Source: Globomyces pollinis-pini (lineage: Eukaryota > Chytridiomycota > Chytridiomycetes > Rhizophydiales > Globomycetaceae). Taken from it: a stretch of 17,575 nucleotides of DNA. The translations under genes and the position numbers were made by a program. The stretch is taken from the NCBI GenBank assembly GCA_025399215.1, contig MU621431.1, forward strand, positions 1 to 17,575, given 5' to 3'. Below the pieces are notes generated by a model, which was not told the origin of the DNA, did no database searches, and saw nothing but the letters and a program-made list of their open reading frames with translations. Positions within the stretch are counted from its first letter, which is position 1. Every line of letters starts with the position of its first letter. Below are positions 1,919-8,145 of the stretch, piece by piece.

Positions 1919-4310
1919 TTATTGTTCGGGTTTGGTACCGCCTTTAGAAGCAATCAAATCTTCTAGAGATTTGTGTCGACTAAGTTCGGTCATGACATCG
2001 GCATCCACTGGTAACACGGATTTTCGTCTAAATCTTTGTGGTTGTGGTCGTTCCTCAAATTGTTGCTATTTAGAGTTAAACGTTTTTTGATTATTACCAA
2101 TTCCTTTGTTAGCGAATCATCTTCTTCCAATCCACTTGGAGAGTCAACCATTTCTTCATCCTGATCAACATCTATATCCATTGCAACATCTTTTGGAGTG
2201 GTATTGAGCGCAAGCTTTTGAGCTAAAAAATTAGAAATACCAATTGGGTTACTCAAGGTTGGAGCACGAACTGGTACTGTGGTAACTCGCTTGGAAGAAT
2301 TATCGGCCGCCAATTGCTCAATTTTTAACCATGCATCTTCACGATCCTTTAGTTTTTTTCGTTCTCTATGTATAAGAAACCGAAAGAAAAAACGTACACT
2401 TGACGGCTCTGCTTGTATTTGTTGGTACATTCATCAAAAAGCTTTGGGCTCATTTCCATAAAGAGTTTTAAGGCATTGTACACTAAGCCATGTATAGTTC
2501 TACAGAATGAAAAATCAACAAAATACCTGTTCCAGTGTGATTTTGAGTTGCGATACAGAGCAGGAAACATTATCGGCAAGATTACATTAACATTTTCACT
2601 TATCAAATTATTAATATATTCATTATTCCAATAGTACAGAGCTCGTTCAGCCACCTAACAGTTACCATTGATGATTTTTACTTGAAAGTGAGGACTGGAT
2701 ACAGATCGTGAAATCTGTTGGAAAATTGGTGTCTGAACTTTAACAAATTCGGTCGGCTCCATTATATCCAAAATCTCTTCCAATTCATTCAAGAACATGA
2801 CTTCTTTTGGAGAATTCACTTTTGGCCAAAATCGCAAGAGTCCCATTATAACCTGGAAATCAAAGACAAATCTTTTTTTACCTCTTCAGTCAAAGTAGGA
2901 TCCTTTTCCAAAAATTGCACTACACAGTAGGCTAGTTGTGGATGATATAATGTGAGCGATTTAGCTTTATGCAATGGCAATAATACACGAATCAAAAACA
3001 CTTTATGTTCCTCTTTTAATGGTAATGCGAAACCGTTGATAATACTAGGGGAAATAAGATAAATAAAACTCCATACCTAGATTATTAATTACTATTAGTC
3101 AATGTACCTATTAATTAATATAAAAGCAAATAAAAACCTTCCTAAAATTTCCAACATTTCTGCTATTCCACTGTGTCTTTCGTCTTCGTAGATGAACAAA
3201 AAGAATGCATTATTAATGGATCGACGAATGAAAGCACGCAAGTTCAAAAACTTCCCATATATACGATGAAGGGTTGTTTTGAGAAAGTCTCTTTCACGCG
3301 GATCTTCACTGTCGAATAATTCGAGTAACTGAAATAATCAAATCTAAGAAGTCATACCTAAAAAAATCCATCAATTAGTCATGTTTACCTGAAGAACAAA
3401 GTGTTGATCAATATACTTTTTAGCAATGTTTGTGTTAAAGTCTGGTGATTCTATAAAACGTAACAGGAATTCATAAACAATTTGAAGATGCGGCCATGCA
3501 GTTTCCAATACAGGCTCATCTTCTTCTGGATCAAAAGCATCTCCGGCAGGATTCACTTGTGGGGGTAAAGTTCGAAATAAATTGTTGGAAAACTGACATT
3601 AAAAAAGGATACTATCAAACCATTTTCATTAACTCTGGATATACATTTTCAGTGATAACCCCTCTATTATTCGAGACGTAATCAACCAATTCTGTCAGTG
3701 TTTGTCGTTTTATTTCTTTTCCCTTCAAATCCGAAAGACTGTCTGTGAAATCGAAAATAACACCACATTGACCAATTTTTTTGATGAGTAAATCAGGTCT
3801 TTCCAGTACAGGGACGTCTGAAAATTAATAGAATCTAAAGCACCTTTTAAATTTGACAGTTTCTCTAATTCCACCTTTTCAGTCACATGAAATCTAGATG
3901 ATTTTTGTCGTTTAGGAGTTTTAGAGATTGGTAGAGTATCTTTTTGAGATTTAATTTTGCCTATAGGGCCAGTTTTGCTCGCTGAATTAGACGAGACCCC
4001 TGGCGAAGCACTAACTGCAATTGCAGGAGCTTCATCTTTTGATTTAGGAGCTAATTTTTCTTTAGAGTTTTTCATTTGAGCAGATAATTGAGTCAAATCA
4101 GTAGCAGGAGGAGCGGCAGGAGTGGGAGTTCTCGTATCTTTTTTTTGTTGCTGCTGCAATGGTTTAGTGATATTTGCAGGTACTTTTGGCTGGTTTTGGT
4201 TCTGCGGCTGTTGCTGTTCTGGCTGTTTCTTAGTGAGTTGTGGGATGATACTCTGGTGTTTTAGTAAAAAGTGAAAATGAAAATACAGTCCGGGGTTTAA
4301 GCGATTTCAT
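1919..4310 (-). CDS. RTS1: PP2A regulatory subunit B' (B56), Rts1-like
   Basis: Eleven exons give 667 residues. Introns (plus coordinates) are 4253-4286, 3818-3843, 3593-3620, 3329-3388, 3045-3137, 2853-2881, 2655-2681, 2500-2526, 2366-2397 and 2066-2097. Residues 1-120 are disordered and rich in Gln, Pro and Ser. The B56 HEAT-like core runs from [19 protein letters not shown] (about 125) to [10 protein letters not shown] (about 550). It includes LHRIYGKF at 298-305; His299, Arg300 and Arg309 match the pocket that binds LxxIxE motifs in substrates. The acidic tail ends with the conserved FRRKSVLP stretch. The protein directs PP2A to its substrates. The ATG at 4310 is chosen because an upstream stop closes its frame and the first 34-nt intron joins it in phase. 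Two introns are unusually built (see findings). I saw no AATAAA after the stop. Confidence 0.96.
3045..3137 (-). other. Composite intron, three GT-AG units (30 + 31 + 32 nt)
   Basis: This 93-nt phase-2 intron of the B56 gene interrupts the conserved [14 protein letters not shown] stretch (GGA AG|T ATT). It divides without remainder into 3137-3108 (30 nt), 3107-3077 (31 nt) and 3076-3045 (32 nt). Each unit begins with GT and ends with TAG, and both internal junctions are AG|GT. The first two units share a TAATTAATA stretch close to their 3' ends; the third differs in sequence. Confidence 0.8.
3329..3388 (-). other. Composite intron, two GT-AG units (31 + 29 nt)
   Basis: This 60-nt phase-0 intron of the B56 gene must be removed as a whole to give FVLQ|LLELFD. 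It consists of 3388-3358 (31 nt, GTAAAC...TTTTTTTAG, with a CTAAT branch-like motif) followed directly by 3357-3329 (29 nt, GTATGA...TTTCAG). The junction is AG|GT with no exon base between the units. Both units fall in the 23-35 nt range of ordinary introns here. Confidence 0.8.
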
Positions 4311-5343: not shown

Positions 5344-5628
5344 TCTGATAACTATTATTTTTGCATAAGTACTACTGGGTAACAACACAATCACTATAAA
5401 TATTTGGCGATCTAGCAAGTAAATGGTTGGGCAATGTTAATGCTATTAGCCGTTAGCGTATTCTAATCGCCAAAAACAAATAAAATTTCAAACAATTCAT
5501 GCTTTGAATTACTTGAAGTTTCTAAATTTACAAAATTAGAGAAAGACTTGATTGACCAATAGAAATCCAACCTGTGCCAATCAATACTAAGGGTTATAAT
5601 CGCGTCTTTATGTTTGTAAAAAAGACTT

Positions 5629-8145
5629 ATGAATCTTCTGTTGTTATTCATTTCACTAACTATATGTCACTGCTTAAGTCCAAATGGTGCAAAGAAACTC
5701 AAGATTGGTATTAGTTTAGGGTTTACTTCTGAAGGAGGTAATACGATAGATGGCACACAAGCAATTTATTTGAGAATCAAACAACTGAATGAAGAATCAT
5801 CTCTGATAGGAAATGATGTAGCATTAGAACCTTTGTTCCTGAATCATGAAATTGCTCGTGATAAGACTATCATCAATGCTCTTGAATTTCAACGTCAAGG
5901 AGTGGTTGCTGTAATTGGTTCAGGATACAGCACATTAACAATTCTCACATCGTTGGTATTACAAAATTACAATATTCCACAATGTTGTGGGGCATCCACC
6001 AACCCGTCACTCTCTGACAAGAAACAATACCCAAACTTCTTTCGTGTCATCCCCACGGATGCCAGTCAGGCGAAAGCAATTATAGGATGTGTAATTGCAT
6101 CTGGTTGGAAAAAAATCGCGATTGTATATACAAATGAAGACTATGGAAGTGGTTTGGCAAATTATCTCACCAACTATGCTCGCCAAAATTCCATTGAAAT
6201 ATTGGCCAAGGTAAATATTGAGCTTGGAATTACAGCTGTGGGTGCCACACCTGCTTTGCAAACCGTTCAAGAATCTGAAGCTAGAATAATTATCTATTGT
6301 GGTTACTTTCTTGAATATCTCACGGTGGTCGAAGTTGCAAAGACTTTGGGGATATACGGGAAAGATTACGTGTGGCTAGCAAGTGAAGATGTGTATTCAC
6401 TTCATCCTGATGATGCAAAAGCTGTTAGTGGTACACTGGTATTTTATCCTCGAGAAGCAGCTGGGCCAGCGTCAAAATCATTCGCCAATTACTGGCTGGA
6501 ACACAGGTTGCAGAGTCAATTTATAAACAAGACATATAGTGCTATTGATGCCTCTCAGCCCTATGTATACTACTTTGCAAGTTGTGTTGATTTATTGGTA
6601 CATGGTTTTGATGTACTTTTGAAATCGAACAATTCATATACTATTGATGATCTGGTAGCTGGTAGACTAAACAATTTGATGAGTCGAGGAGATTTTTTCA
6701 ACTTTCCTGAAGTAACAACACCGAGTGGCAATGTCAAACTGGAAGAAAATGGTGATCGGAAAGGTGACTTTAATATGTACAATTTTGTTGTAGATGGATC
6801 AAAGGTACTTGTTGGTGGTTGGATCGATGAGAAAAAGGTTTTGGTTGCTGGTGAATCTATTCTATATCCTGGAGGCAGTTTTATTCAACCAAAAGACGGA
6901 ATTGATCCTGAAGACGTGGCCGAATATGCGAATCCATCAAGCATGCTTGCTATAATTTCCTACCTTTTCACAATCATTGTTATAGCGACAACCTTTTTAT
7001 CATTAGTGGGAATGATAAAGTATAGAGACAAAAAGATAGTCCGAGTTTCAGGACTAACAATTAGTTTGATCATGCATGTATGTATCATCTTTGGTAGTAT
7101 GCAGTTCTTGATCATGGTCGATAAACCACTGGAATGGAAATGCAAATTGGATAGTTTTGTCATCCCTATATCATTTTCGCTTTATTATGGTTTGCTCTTT
7201 GCCAAAAATTATCAAATATATAGAATATTCTATCATCCAACCACTTCCAAGCATATTACCAAAACAACAATGGTGCTGCTTATCGCTGTTTTATTTACAA
7301 TCCCATCACTTGTGATATCTACAGTTTGGATTACAATTGATGCTCCTCTACCTACTATCGCAAAGTTATCACAGAGTCAATTTTATCGAACGTGTAAAAG
7401 TGATATTGGATTTGGTGCAAAATCAATCAATGCTTTACTGGTGGTGAATTCACTAGTATTACTAGCAAATCTACTGATGGCAGTATTGACGAGAAATGTA
7501 GTATCCACACACAATGAAACAAAGATGATTGGATTATCAGTTTACAATACGTCTGTTATATCATTGTTTACAATTGTCACGGTGAATTCTGGTAGTCTCA
7601 GTTTCAGTGCAAAATATTTGATCAAAGCCATTGCCATATTTTATGTGTTGATGTTCAATTTAGCGTCTCGATTTTTATACAAACTACGTCAAATAATACT
7701 TAATAGTGAAAACAATGCTACTCAAACAAGCTCATATGCATCGAAAGGGGATGGCAAAGTTTCCAAGAAAGAGGGAGAAGAGGAGGAGTCATTAGTTACA
7801 GTCAAAAAGTATGGAACATTTACTACTGAAACTAATGATGCTCATATGAGAGTAATATCATCCGAATGTGTGGTACTATTCAAACGCAAAAAAGTTTCTC
7901 TGGAATCCAAAGATATTAAAGATGATGGAACTGGTACAGCATGGTTTGTATCCAAACTGAAACATTTCTCAATGACTACTAGAGGTAATCTCACATGCCG
8001 GTTCCAGGTTGACGATATTGTGTATGATATTTCGTTTTCAGATGAAGATTCAATAACATTTTGGACAAAGTACTTTGCATCATGGAGTTATAGAGTACTT
8101 AATTGTGGGACACAATCCGACTATATCAAATCTTCACTGGCATGA
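5629..8145 (+). CDS. Class C (GABA-B-like) G protein-coupled receptor
   Basis: A single uninterrupted frame of 838 residues. Residues 1-16 form a signal peptide (MNLLLLFISLTICHC). Residues 23 to about 395 are a periplasmic-binding-protein (Venus flytrap) domain, shown by IGSGYSTLT, then IPQCCGASTNPSLSDK and FFRVIPTDASQA. No cysteine-rich linker follows, as in GABA-B and Dictyostelium Grl receptors. Seven hydrophobic segments lie near 437-462, 474-497, 508-530, 547-569, 597-622, 635-655 and 660-683. Cys505 and Cys589 stand where the TM3-loop 2 disulfide of the family sits. The cytoplasmic tail (684-838) has a Glu-rich patch and then a strand-rich, Trp-ending segment at about 725-815 that could be PH-like (inference). 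Ligand unknown. It has no intron although most neighbours are intron-dense. Confidence 0.93.
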   Translation: MNLLLLFISLTICHCLSPNGAKKLKIGISLGFTSEGGNTIDGTQAIYLRIKQLNEESSLIGNDVALEPLFLNHEIARDKTIINALEFQRQGVVAVIGSGYSTLTILTSLVLQNYNIPQCCGASTNPSLSDKKQYPNFFRVIPTDASQAKAIIGCVIASGWKKIAIVYTNEDYGSGLANYLTNYARQNSIEILAKVNIELGITAVGATPALQTVQESEARIIIYCGYFLEYLTVVEVAKTLGIYGKDYVWLASEDVYSLHPDDAKAVSGTLVFYPREAAGPASKSFANYWLEHRLQSQFINKTYSAIDASQPYVYYFASCVDLLVHGFDVLLKSNNSYTIDDLVAGRLNNLMSRGDFFNFPEVTTPSGNVKLEENGDRKGDFNMYNFVVDGSKVLVGGWIDEKKVLVAGESILYPGGSFIQPKDGIDPEDVAEYANPSSMLAIISYLFTIIVIATTFLSLVGMIKYRDKKIVRVSGLTISLIMHVCIIFGSMQFLIMVDKPLEWKCKLDSFVIPISFSLYYGLLFAKNYQIYRIFYHPTTSKHITKTTMVLLIAVLFTIPSLVISTVWITIDAPLPTIAKLSQSQFYRTCKSDIGFGAKSINALLVVNSLVLLANLLMAVLTRNVVSTHNETKMIGLSVYNTSVISLFTIVTVNSGSLSFSAKYLIKAIAIFYVLMFNLASRFLYKLRQIILNSENNATQTSSYASKGDGKVSKKEGEEEESLVTVKKYGTFTTETNDAHMRVISSECVVLFKRKKVSLESKDIKDDGTGTAWFVSKLKHFSMTTRGNLTCRFQVDDIVYDISFSDEDSITFWTKYFASWSYRVLNCGTQSDYIKSSLA

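Follow-up and report, generated by a model that had tools for sequence, protein, structure and literature searches.

We analysed contig C342 of the chytrid Globomyces pollinis-pini (order Rhizophydiales; genome of 18,547,825 bases in 459 contigs), a stretch of 17,575 bases referred to here as the window, in which a gene for a B56 regulatory subunit of the protein phosphatase PP2A is interrupted by an intron of 93 nucleotides (nt). The original prediction for this intron, an array of miniature introns with zero-length exons between them, was borne out, and the array proved to belong to a class found genome-wide. We consider it probable (roughly 0.74) that the 93-nt intron is a tandem array of complete U2-type mini-introns that arose by local duplication and whose units can be excised one at a time, in whatever order, or jointly. 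The evidence comprises the exact partition of the intron, a genome-wide excess of joints at unit spacing, the zero length of these joints, non-terminal units that carry branch motifs, a paralog with single introns at matching sites, and near-identical units in some arrays.

The 93-nt intron and its gene

Read on the minus strand, the intron consists of GTTTTTATTTGCTTTTATATTAATTAATAG, GTACATTGACTAATAGTAATTAATAATCTAG and GTATGGAGTTTTATTTATCTTATTTCCCCTAG in direct succession, which is the predicted exact partition into 30+31+32 nt, with AG|GT at both joints. A second array lies in the same gene, and GT...AG ends are present in all three units of the first array and both units of the second. The gene model and its arrays are as follows.

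1919..4075, minus strand: PP2A B56 regulatory subunit gene; model of 600 amino acids with seven single introns of 26-32 nt, two arrays and one further probable 30-nt intron
3045..3137, minus strand: three-unit intron array, 93 nt, phase 2, in the Ser codon of ...LEILG-S-IINGF; based on sequence, exact partition, homologous proteins and paralog
3108..3137, minus strand: unit 1 of 30 nt, with donor GTTTTT and a terminal TAG; its best branch motif, ATTAAT (score 5.1), lies 6 nt from the unit's end
3077..3107, minus strand: unit 2 of 31 nt, with donor GTACAT and a terminal TAG; its best branch motif, ATTAAT (score 4.6), lies 7 nt from the unit's end
3045..3076, minus strand: unit 3 of 32 nt, with donor GTATGG and a terminal TAG; its best branch motif, TCTTAT (score 3.4), lies 9 nt from the unit's end
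3329..3388, minus strand: second array, two units, 60 nt, phase 0, at FVLQ|LLELF; in the paralog, a single intron of 32 nt occupies this column in the same phase
3358-3388, minus strand: 31-nt unit of the second array, motif score 3.5
3329-3357, minus strand: 29-nt unit of the second array, motif score 4.2

Excision of all 93 nt, in phase 2, leaves the protein continuous as in four comparison proteins, namely the best match to the gene (P0001, 98% identity, Globomyces pollinis-pini) and those of Globomyces sp. JEL0801 (P0003), Kappamyces (P0037) and Entophlyctis (P0005). The spliced protein agrees with all four at both array sites, and the B56 Pfam match extends across both arrays. When all seven combinations of retained units were read for the 93-nt array, six led to stops or a changed frame; retention of unit 1 alone adds 10 residues and keeps the frame. 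The earlier claim that the intron must be removed whole is therefore upheld by the continuity of the homologous proteins but not by frame alone: because unit 1 can be retained in frame, removal of the whole 93 nt rests on homology together with frame.

A B56 paralog on contig C312 shares six of the eight aligned introns of the window gene, each at the same alignment column and in the same phase. All six are single in the paralog (26, 27, 32, 31, 28, and 28 nt), with a single 31-nt intron where the window gene has the 93-nt array and a single 32-nt intron where it has the 60-nt array. The seven single introns of the window gene, which were placed by hand, and the further probable one are listed below.

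3818..3843, minus strand: single intron of 26 nt in phase 1, with a 26-nt counterpart in the paralog
3593..3620, minus strand: single intron of 28 nt in phase 0, with a 27-nt counterpart in the paralog
2853..2881, minus strand: single intron of 29 nt in phase 0, with a 28-nt counterpart in the paralog
2655..2681, minus strand: single intron, 27 nt, phase 0; none found in the paralog at this site
2500..2526, minus strand: single intron of 27 nt in phase 2, with a 28-nt counterpart in the paralog
2366..2397, minus strand: single intron, 32 nt, phase 2; paralog alignment unreliable at this site
2066..2097, minus strand: single intron of 32 nt that lies outside the aligned domain, close to the gene's 3' end
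2223..2252, minus strand: probable single intron of 30 nt, alternatively a retained one that keeps the frame; the stretch has an open frame and is treated as coding in the model used, and its 10 residues are absent from P0001 and P0003

Intron length also varies at one Rho-family site, which in five paralogs holds introns of 26, 31, 32, 68 (31+37), and 97 nt; the 97-nt intron does not split. We infer that the direction of change in unit number has been growth rather than shrinkage.

Intron arrays across the genome

AGGT is a rare tetramer, as had been supposed, occurring once per 328 bases per strand in 200 kb of the genome. On the two strands of the whole genome, AGGT triples numbered 287+298 at a spacing of 28-36 nt and 51+50 at 44-52 nt, counts that take in matches outside introns and to which one array can contribute several matches; the predicted enrichment at unit spacing is thus present. 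Counts of the reversed tetramer, which served as a control, changed little between the two spacings (541+622 and 505+536, respectively). For the longer motif TAGGTA, 73 triples (32+41) were detected at 27-35 nt, in 48 separate places (reversed control, 4+0), and none in the whole genome at 43-51 nt. A 1-nt spacer inside each joint likewise left no triples genome-wide, and a 3-nt spacer per joint, at 30-38 nt, left two (reversed control, five). Taken together, the spacing and spacer counts point to arrays of unit length with zero-length exons, and it is these genome-wide counts, rather than the single 93-nt case, that make the class certain. Inside single introns AGGT is depleted, with two occurrences in 147 introns of a 217-kb sample (the window plus 20 stretches of 10 kb), a depletion to be expected if inner AG|GT sites are taken for splice joints.

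Array sizes across the genome range from two to at least 10 units. From the AGGT-triple places listed, 20 array stretches were chosen by eye, and their joint chains reach 10 joints. Five arrays in other conserved genes were checked by homology; gene names finer than the Pfam level were assigned by eye.

Rab8-like gene (Ras-family domain): 160 nt = 32+31+35+28+34
PhyH gene: 285 nt = 29+28+28+28+28+27+29+29+28+31, 10 units
CoaE gene: 129 nt = 31+32+32+34
Protein kinase gene (LAMMER-like by eye): 138 nt = 25+27+29+28+29
Rieske protein gene: 62 nt = 32+30

In each of these genes the Pfam match spans the array junction. A mitochondrial carrier gene holds a further array of 64 nt (32+32), for which the best Pfam stretch shown stops short of the junction and gives no Pfam confirmation.

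Splice signals were examined in 94 units of 24 arrays, using a branch motif derived from 111 single introns. This motif is a hexamer resembling YTNAY and usually lies 5-9 nt from the 3' end. The mean motif score was 3.87 in array units versus 2.04 in dinucleotide shuffles (z = 10.2), and 87% of units exceeded 2.5, compared with 41% of shuffles. Because some chains end at the exon (CoaE, kinase), the test was repeated without the last unit of each chain, and the signal persisted (70 units, z = 9.3). It also persisted in strictly non-terminal units of heterogeneous arrays, a set that leaves out three loci with visibly repeated units, L033, L035, and L036 (56 units, 20 arrays, z = 8.3), and in units that are neither first nor last (36 units, z = 7.0); in each of these three tests, 0 of 300 shuffles reached the observed value. 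The positions next to the splice sites are biased as well: A at +3 occurs in 65% of the 94 units versus 33% after all 1,219 sampled AGGT, T at -3 in 68% versus 23%, and T precedes AG in 40 of the 56 strictly non-terminal units. The genome contains a canonical U2 small nuclear RNA (snRNA) gene (C213:1166-1358, 135 bits) with the branch-binding sequence GTAGTATC; a search of the genome for U1 snRNA gave no match, and neither did the control genomes.

Most array units have diverged from one another beyond recognition. No adjacent pair of units exceeded the 99% level of cross-array pairs in 21 of the 24 arrays, and the seven adjacent pairs (of 70) that did so all lie in L036, L033, and L035. Since the units within most arrays have diverged, the array signals are not merely recent copies, which argues that selection has kept them. 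Several units of the PhyH array, in contrast, are near-identical, and a 28-nt unit that occurs twice in it has no other copy in the genome at three or fewer mismatches. Arrays of near-identical units, probably young, were also seen at C68:15928, C152:40559, C168:4851, C194:3382, and C225:6566. Near-identical PhyH units without copies elsewhere, together with these other arrays, make local tandem duplication the likely source of units.

Arrays were also sought among unselected introns. In the 217-kb sample, a gene finder with a flat intron-length prior predicted 298 introns, of which 143 passed a flank filter; 114 of these were shorter than 38 nt, and 29 had at least 38 nt: one each of 38 and 40 nt, seven in the range 41-70 nt, and twenty in the range 71-315 nt. 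Four of the seven in the 41-70-nt band are zero-exon doubles (58, 59, 62, and 64 nt). The other three (50, 52, and 63 nt) were rejected as arrays and left uncounted because each hides a short exon (kinesin HIPYR and GYNG, and HKFAGNII), calls for which we take the family consensus as the guide; the 63-nt prediction formally splits into 26+37 despite its hidden exon. A 76-nt prediction in L020 was likewise discarded, a coding stretch being recognised inside it by eye. In a kinesin-like gene (L013, C10:10001-20000, minus strand, approximately 482-545), an apparent 9-nt microexon, part of GYNG, lies between introns of 26 and 28 nt and fits the formal pattern of an AG|GT double, which could mislead automatic counts.

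The second unselected set comprised 21 Ras-family loci (L031 plus 20 stretches chosen from 50 Ras matches, favouring exon-split genes); the Rab8-like array was fetched for its array and stands outside this count. Three of six introns of 41-70 nt split exactly (53, 59, and 68 nt). Those of 55 and 69 nt were read as single introns of 28 and 27 nt plus misread neighbouring sequence, and a 54-nt prediction lies past the domain and was counted neither as split nor as a model error; a 211-nt prediction that runs off its gene was also set aside. Across both sets, 7 of the 13 introns of 41-70 nt examined split at AG|GT, and five others are model errors by reading. With a chance of exact splitting of 1.4-12% per intron, seven splits are far beyond expectation. 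An initial version of the gene finder bridged genes with false introns of 200-700 nt and was discarded; under a penalised model, nothing above 40 nt survives except the 62-nt double and six introns of 74-106 nt that are unitary and resist splitting. As to the length peaks suggested near 60 and 90 nt, introns of about 60 nt that split exactly in two do exist, and the unselected samples give no peak near 90 nt.

Unit removal and competing explanations

The proposed mechanism would begin with one ancestral ultrashort intron, which local tandem duplication would multiply and divergence would then render unalike. Each unit would carry a full set of signals (5' and 3' splice sites and a branch point), and units would abut at AG|GT. 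Because excision of any unit would re-create an AG|GT joint, no order of removal would be imposed, and joining any unit's donor to its own or a later unit's acceptor would yield the identical final mRNA and leave the protein unaffected. Since such pairings would be harmless, extra units should be nearly neutral and arrays could grow. Judged by sequence, the removability of each unit is well supported; we infer that the cell's spliceosome removes units stepwise. A broader proposal is that these are "intron satellites," a genome-wide class in which unit number is free to expand and contract by tandem duplication at many intron positions. We offer it tentatively, seeing the odds as close to balanced but tilting slightly against it. 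Were it true, loss of an inner joint would leave one longer intron, providing a stepwise, length-quantised route from about 30 nt to conventional introns.

Several observations weigh against removal unit by unit or against the array reading more generally. Donors in arrays fall short of single-intron donors in strength (+3 A in 65% versus 94%), and just 29 of the 56 strictly non-terminal units of heterogeneous arrays have +3 A; this fits redundancy among units but also relaxed constraint. Arrays entered the signal tests through visual inspection and AGGT spacing rather than through the features tested, and they include some chance chains in coding sequence. Mean pair scores were 4.9 for adjacent units, 4.2 for non-adjacent units of the same array, and 3.05 across arrays (the three repeated loci included), and this slightly higher similarity within arrays may mean that some inherited likeness remains. 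The unselected samples yielded only two-unit arrays. None of the 20 gene-finder introns above 70 nt in the 217-kb sample split (several are model errors), nor did any of the three credible Ras-family introns of that length (97, 106, and 169 nt). At the 20 array loci, gene-finder introns above 40 nt split fully in only 10 of 22 cases; at least two of the 12 that do not, both in L031, are misread gene models, and a stretch of 71 nt that does not split comes after the chain in L032. Introns of 106, 169, and 97 nt, all unitary, are present in Rho- and Rab11-like genes (L054, L055, and L057, respectively), and the 93-nt block could in principle be removed in one step. Because these long introns are credible and lie in conserved genes, the spliceosome is not confined to short introns, and the suggested limit of about 23-35 nt was wrong. 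Two of the three have strong donors and CTAAC-like branch sites (GTAAGT...TACTAAC and GTATGT...TTTCTAAC); long unitary introns may form a second intron class with stronger signals.

These points bear most directly on an explanation that shares the duplication history: the arrays would now be excised in a single step that pairs the first donor with the last acceptor, with the inner joints as functionless remnants. Long unitary introns and weak array donors both speak for it, and in young arrays of near-identical units the signals may be mere copies. Yet non-terminal units of heterogeneous arrays keep their branch motifs and the T before AG; decaying remnants should moreover yield joint-free introns of 50-70 nt, and the inspected, credible introns of 41-70 nt in the unselected samples all split at AG|GT. 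On this balance we regard one-step removal as unlikely, while according it more weight than the other alternatives. Improbable to a much greater degree is that the units are copies of a mobile intron (introner) inserted at AG|GT, including existing intron boundaries. AG|GT is the kind of insertion site that introners use, and an intron boundary after an exonic AG is such a site. However, the 28-nt PhyH unit, the only one searched genome-wide, is confined to its own array, and unit pairs from different arrays align poorly (their mean of 3.05 compares with 30 for an identical 30-nt pair).

The two remaining explanations concern the joints themselves. Stwintron-like nesting, in which a unit inside another's splice signal must leave first, might be considered on the ground that chytrids are fungi and stwintrons have been reported in that kingdom (PMC7138796, PMC5639578). 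We hold it to be very improbable, since every unit has its own GT donor and AG acceptor and depends on no prior removal, and since the joints are exactly zero-length in chains of up to 10 units. Least credible of all is an ordinary intron of about 90 nt with two AGGT at fitting spacing by chance. Dinucleotide-preserving shuffles of the 93 nt gave a full partition in 365 of 60,000 cases (0.6%), so that a single instance among many introns would be unremarkable, and long unitary introns do occur; against this stand the stringent TAGGTA triples and their absence at the control spacing, the single introns at the same sites of the paralog, the second exact array in the B56 gene, and the depletion of AGGT in single introns.

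Relation to known systems and other features of the window

Ultrashort spliceosomal introns of a few tens of nt occur in ciliates, nucleomorphs, and dicyemids, and the literature searches made turned up no tandem arrays of them in these groups. More generally, those searches found no account of side-by-side ultrashort intron arrays, which, given partial coverage, is weak evidence of absence. The tandem array reading has its closest parallel in the recursive splicing of Drosophila and vertebrates, which also relies on juxtaposed AG|GT, re-creates a donor when a segment is removed, and leaves no residue in the mRNA. Ratchet points sit in long introns, and those of Drosophila need a cryptic downstream RS-exon (PMC8605326, PMC5126111). 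The chytrid intron, in contrast, is 93 nt as a whole, the units after its two joints being 31 and 32 nt, and with whole units of about 30 nt, definition of an exon across the joint seems implausible; up to 10 chytrid units, each of the genome's usual intron size, follow in succession.

Stwintrons and complex intervening sequences of Hypoxylaceae, Lipomyces, and Aspergillus likewise place more than one U2 intron at a fungal intron position. Stwintrons are nested and excised from the inside out, according to two studies (PMC7138796, PMC5639578), one of which reports that a complex intron of L. starkeyi can leave in one step or two (PMC7138796). The chytrid units, unlike these, are complete and lie side by side in numbers from two to at least 10, and their order of removal should not matter; the defining interruption of an outer splice signal by an inner intron is absent, each unit having both sites. 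Introners resemble the arrays as an intron-multiplying mechanism. They copy themselves into many genes (PMC9860276). Chytrid copies, by contrast, pile up at one site, and for the single unit searched no match lies outside its own array. In a model for the potato RdRp gene, duplication of an AGGT-bearing stretch reportedly creates one new intron, whereas the chytrid arrays duplicate a whole intron and make no new site. For that gene, tandem duplication has been proposed as the event behind the intron gain (PMC4974935).

If the tandem array reading is correct, introns here multiply in place rather than via insertion at new sites, which suggests that genes can gain introns at one spot with the protein unchanged. 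The arrays would offer a natural test bed for the minimal spliceosomal intron still recognised as a unit, and multi-unit and single-unit introns at the same codon of paralogs would permit tests of unit-wise removal, of its order, and of the origin of longer introns. They also carry a warning for annotation, since arrays risk being annotated as coding sequence or as a single long intron.

Annotation of the window itself gave a different intron tally from that reported earlier. The count of 38 single introns of 23-35 nt could not be reproduced: a conservative ab initio model yields 25 introns, 22 of them of 23-36 nt and three doubtful (17, 18, and 20 nt), and calls neither B56 array. A long receptor-like gene at 5609-8145 on the plus strand has long uninterrupted coding stretches, in contrast to the other, intron-rich genes of the window; recognised by eye, it is apparently a class C G-protein-coupled receptor with an ANF-type ligand-binding part.

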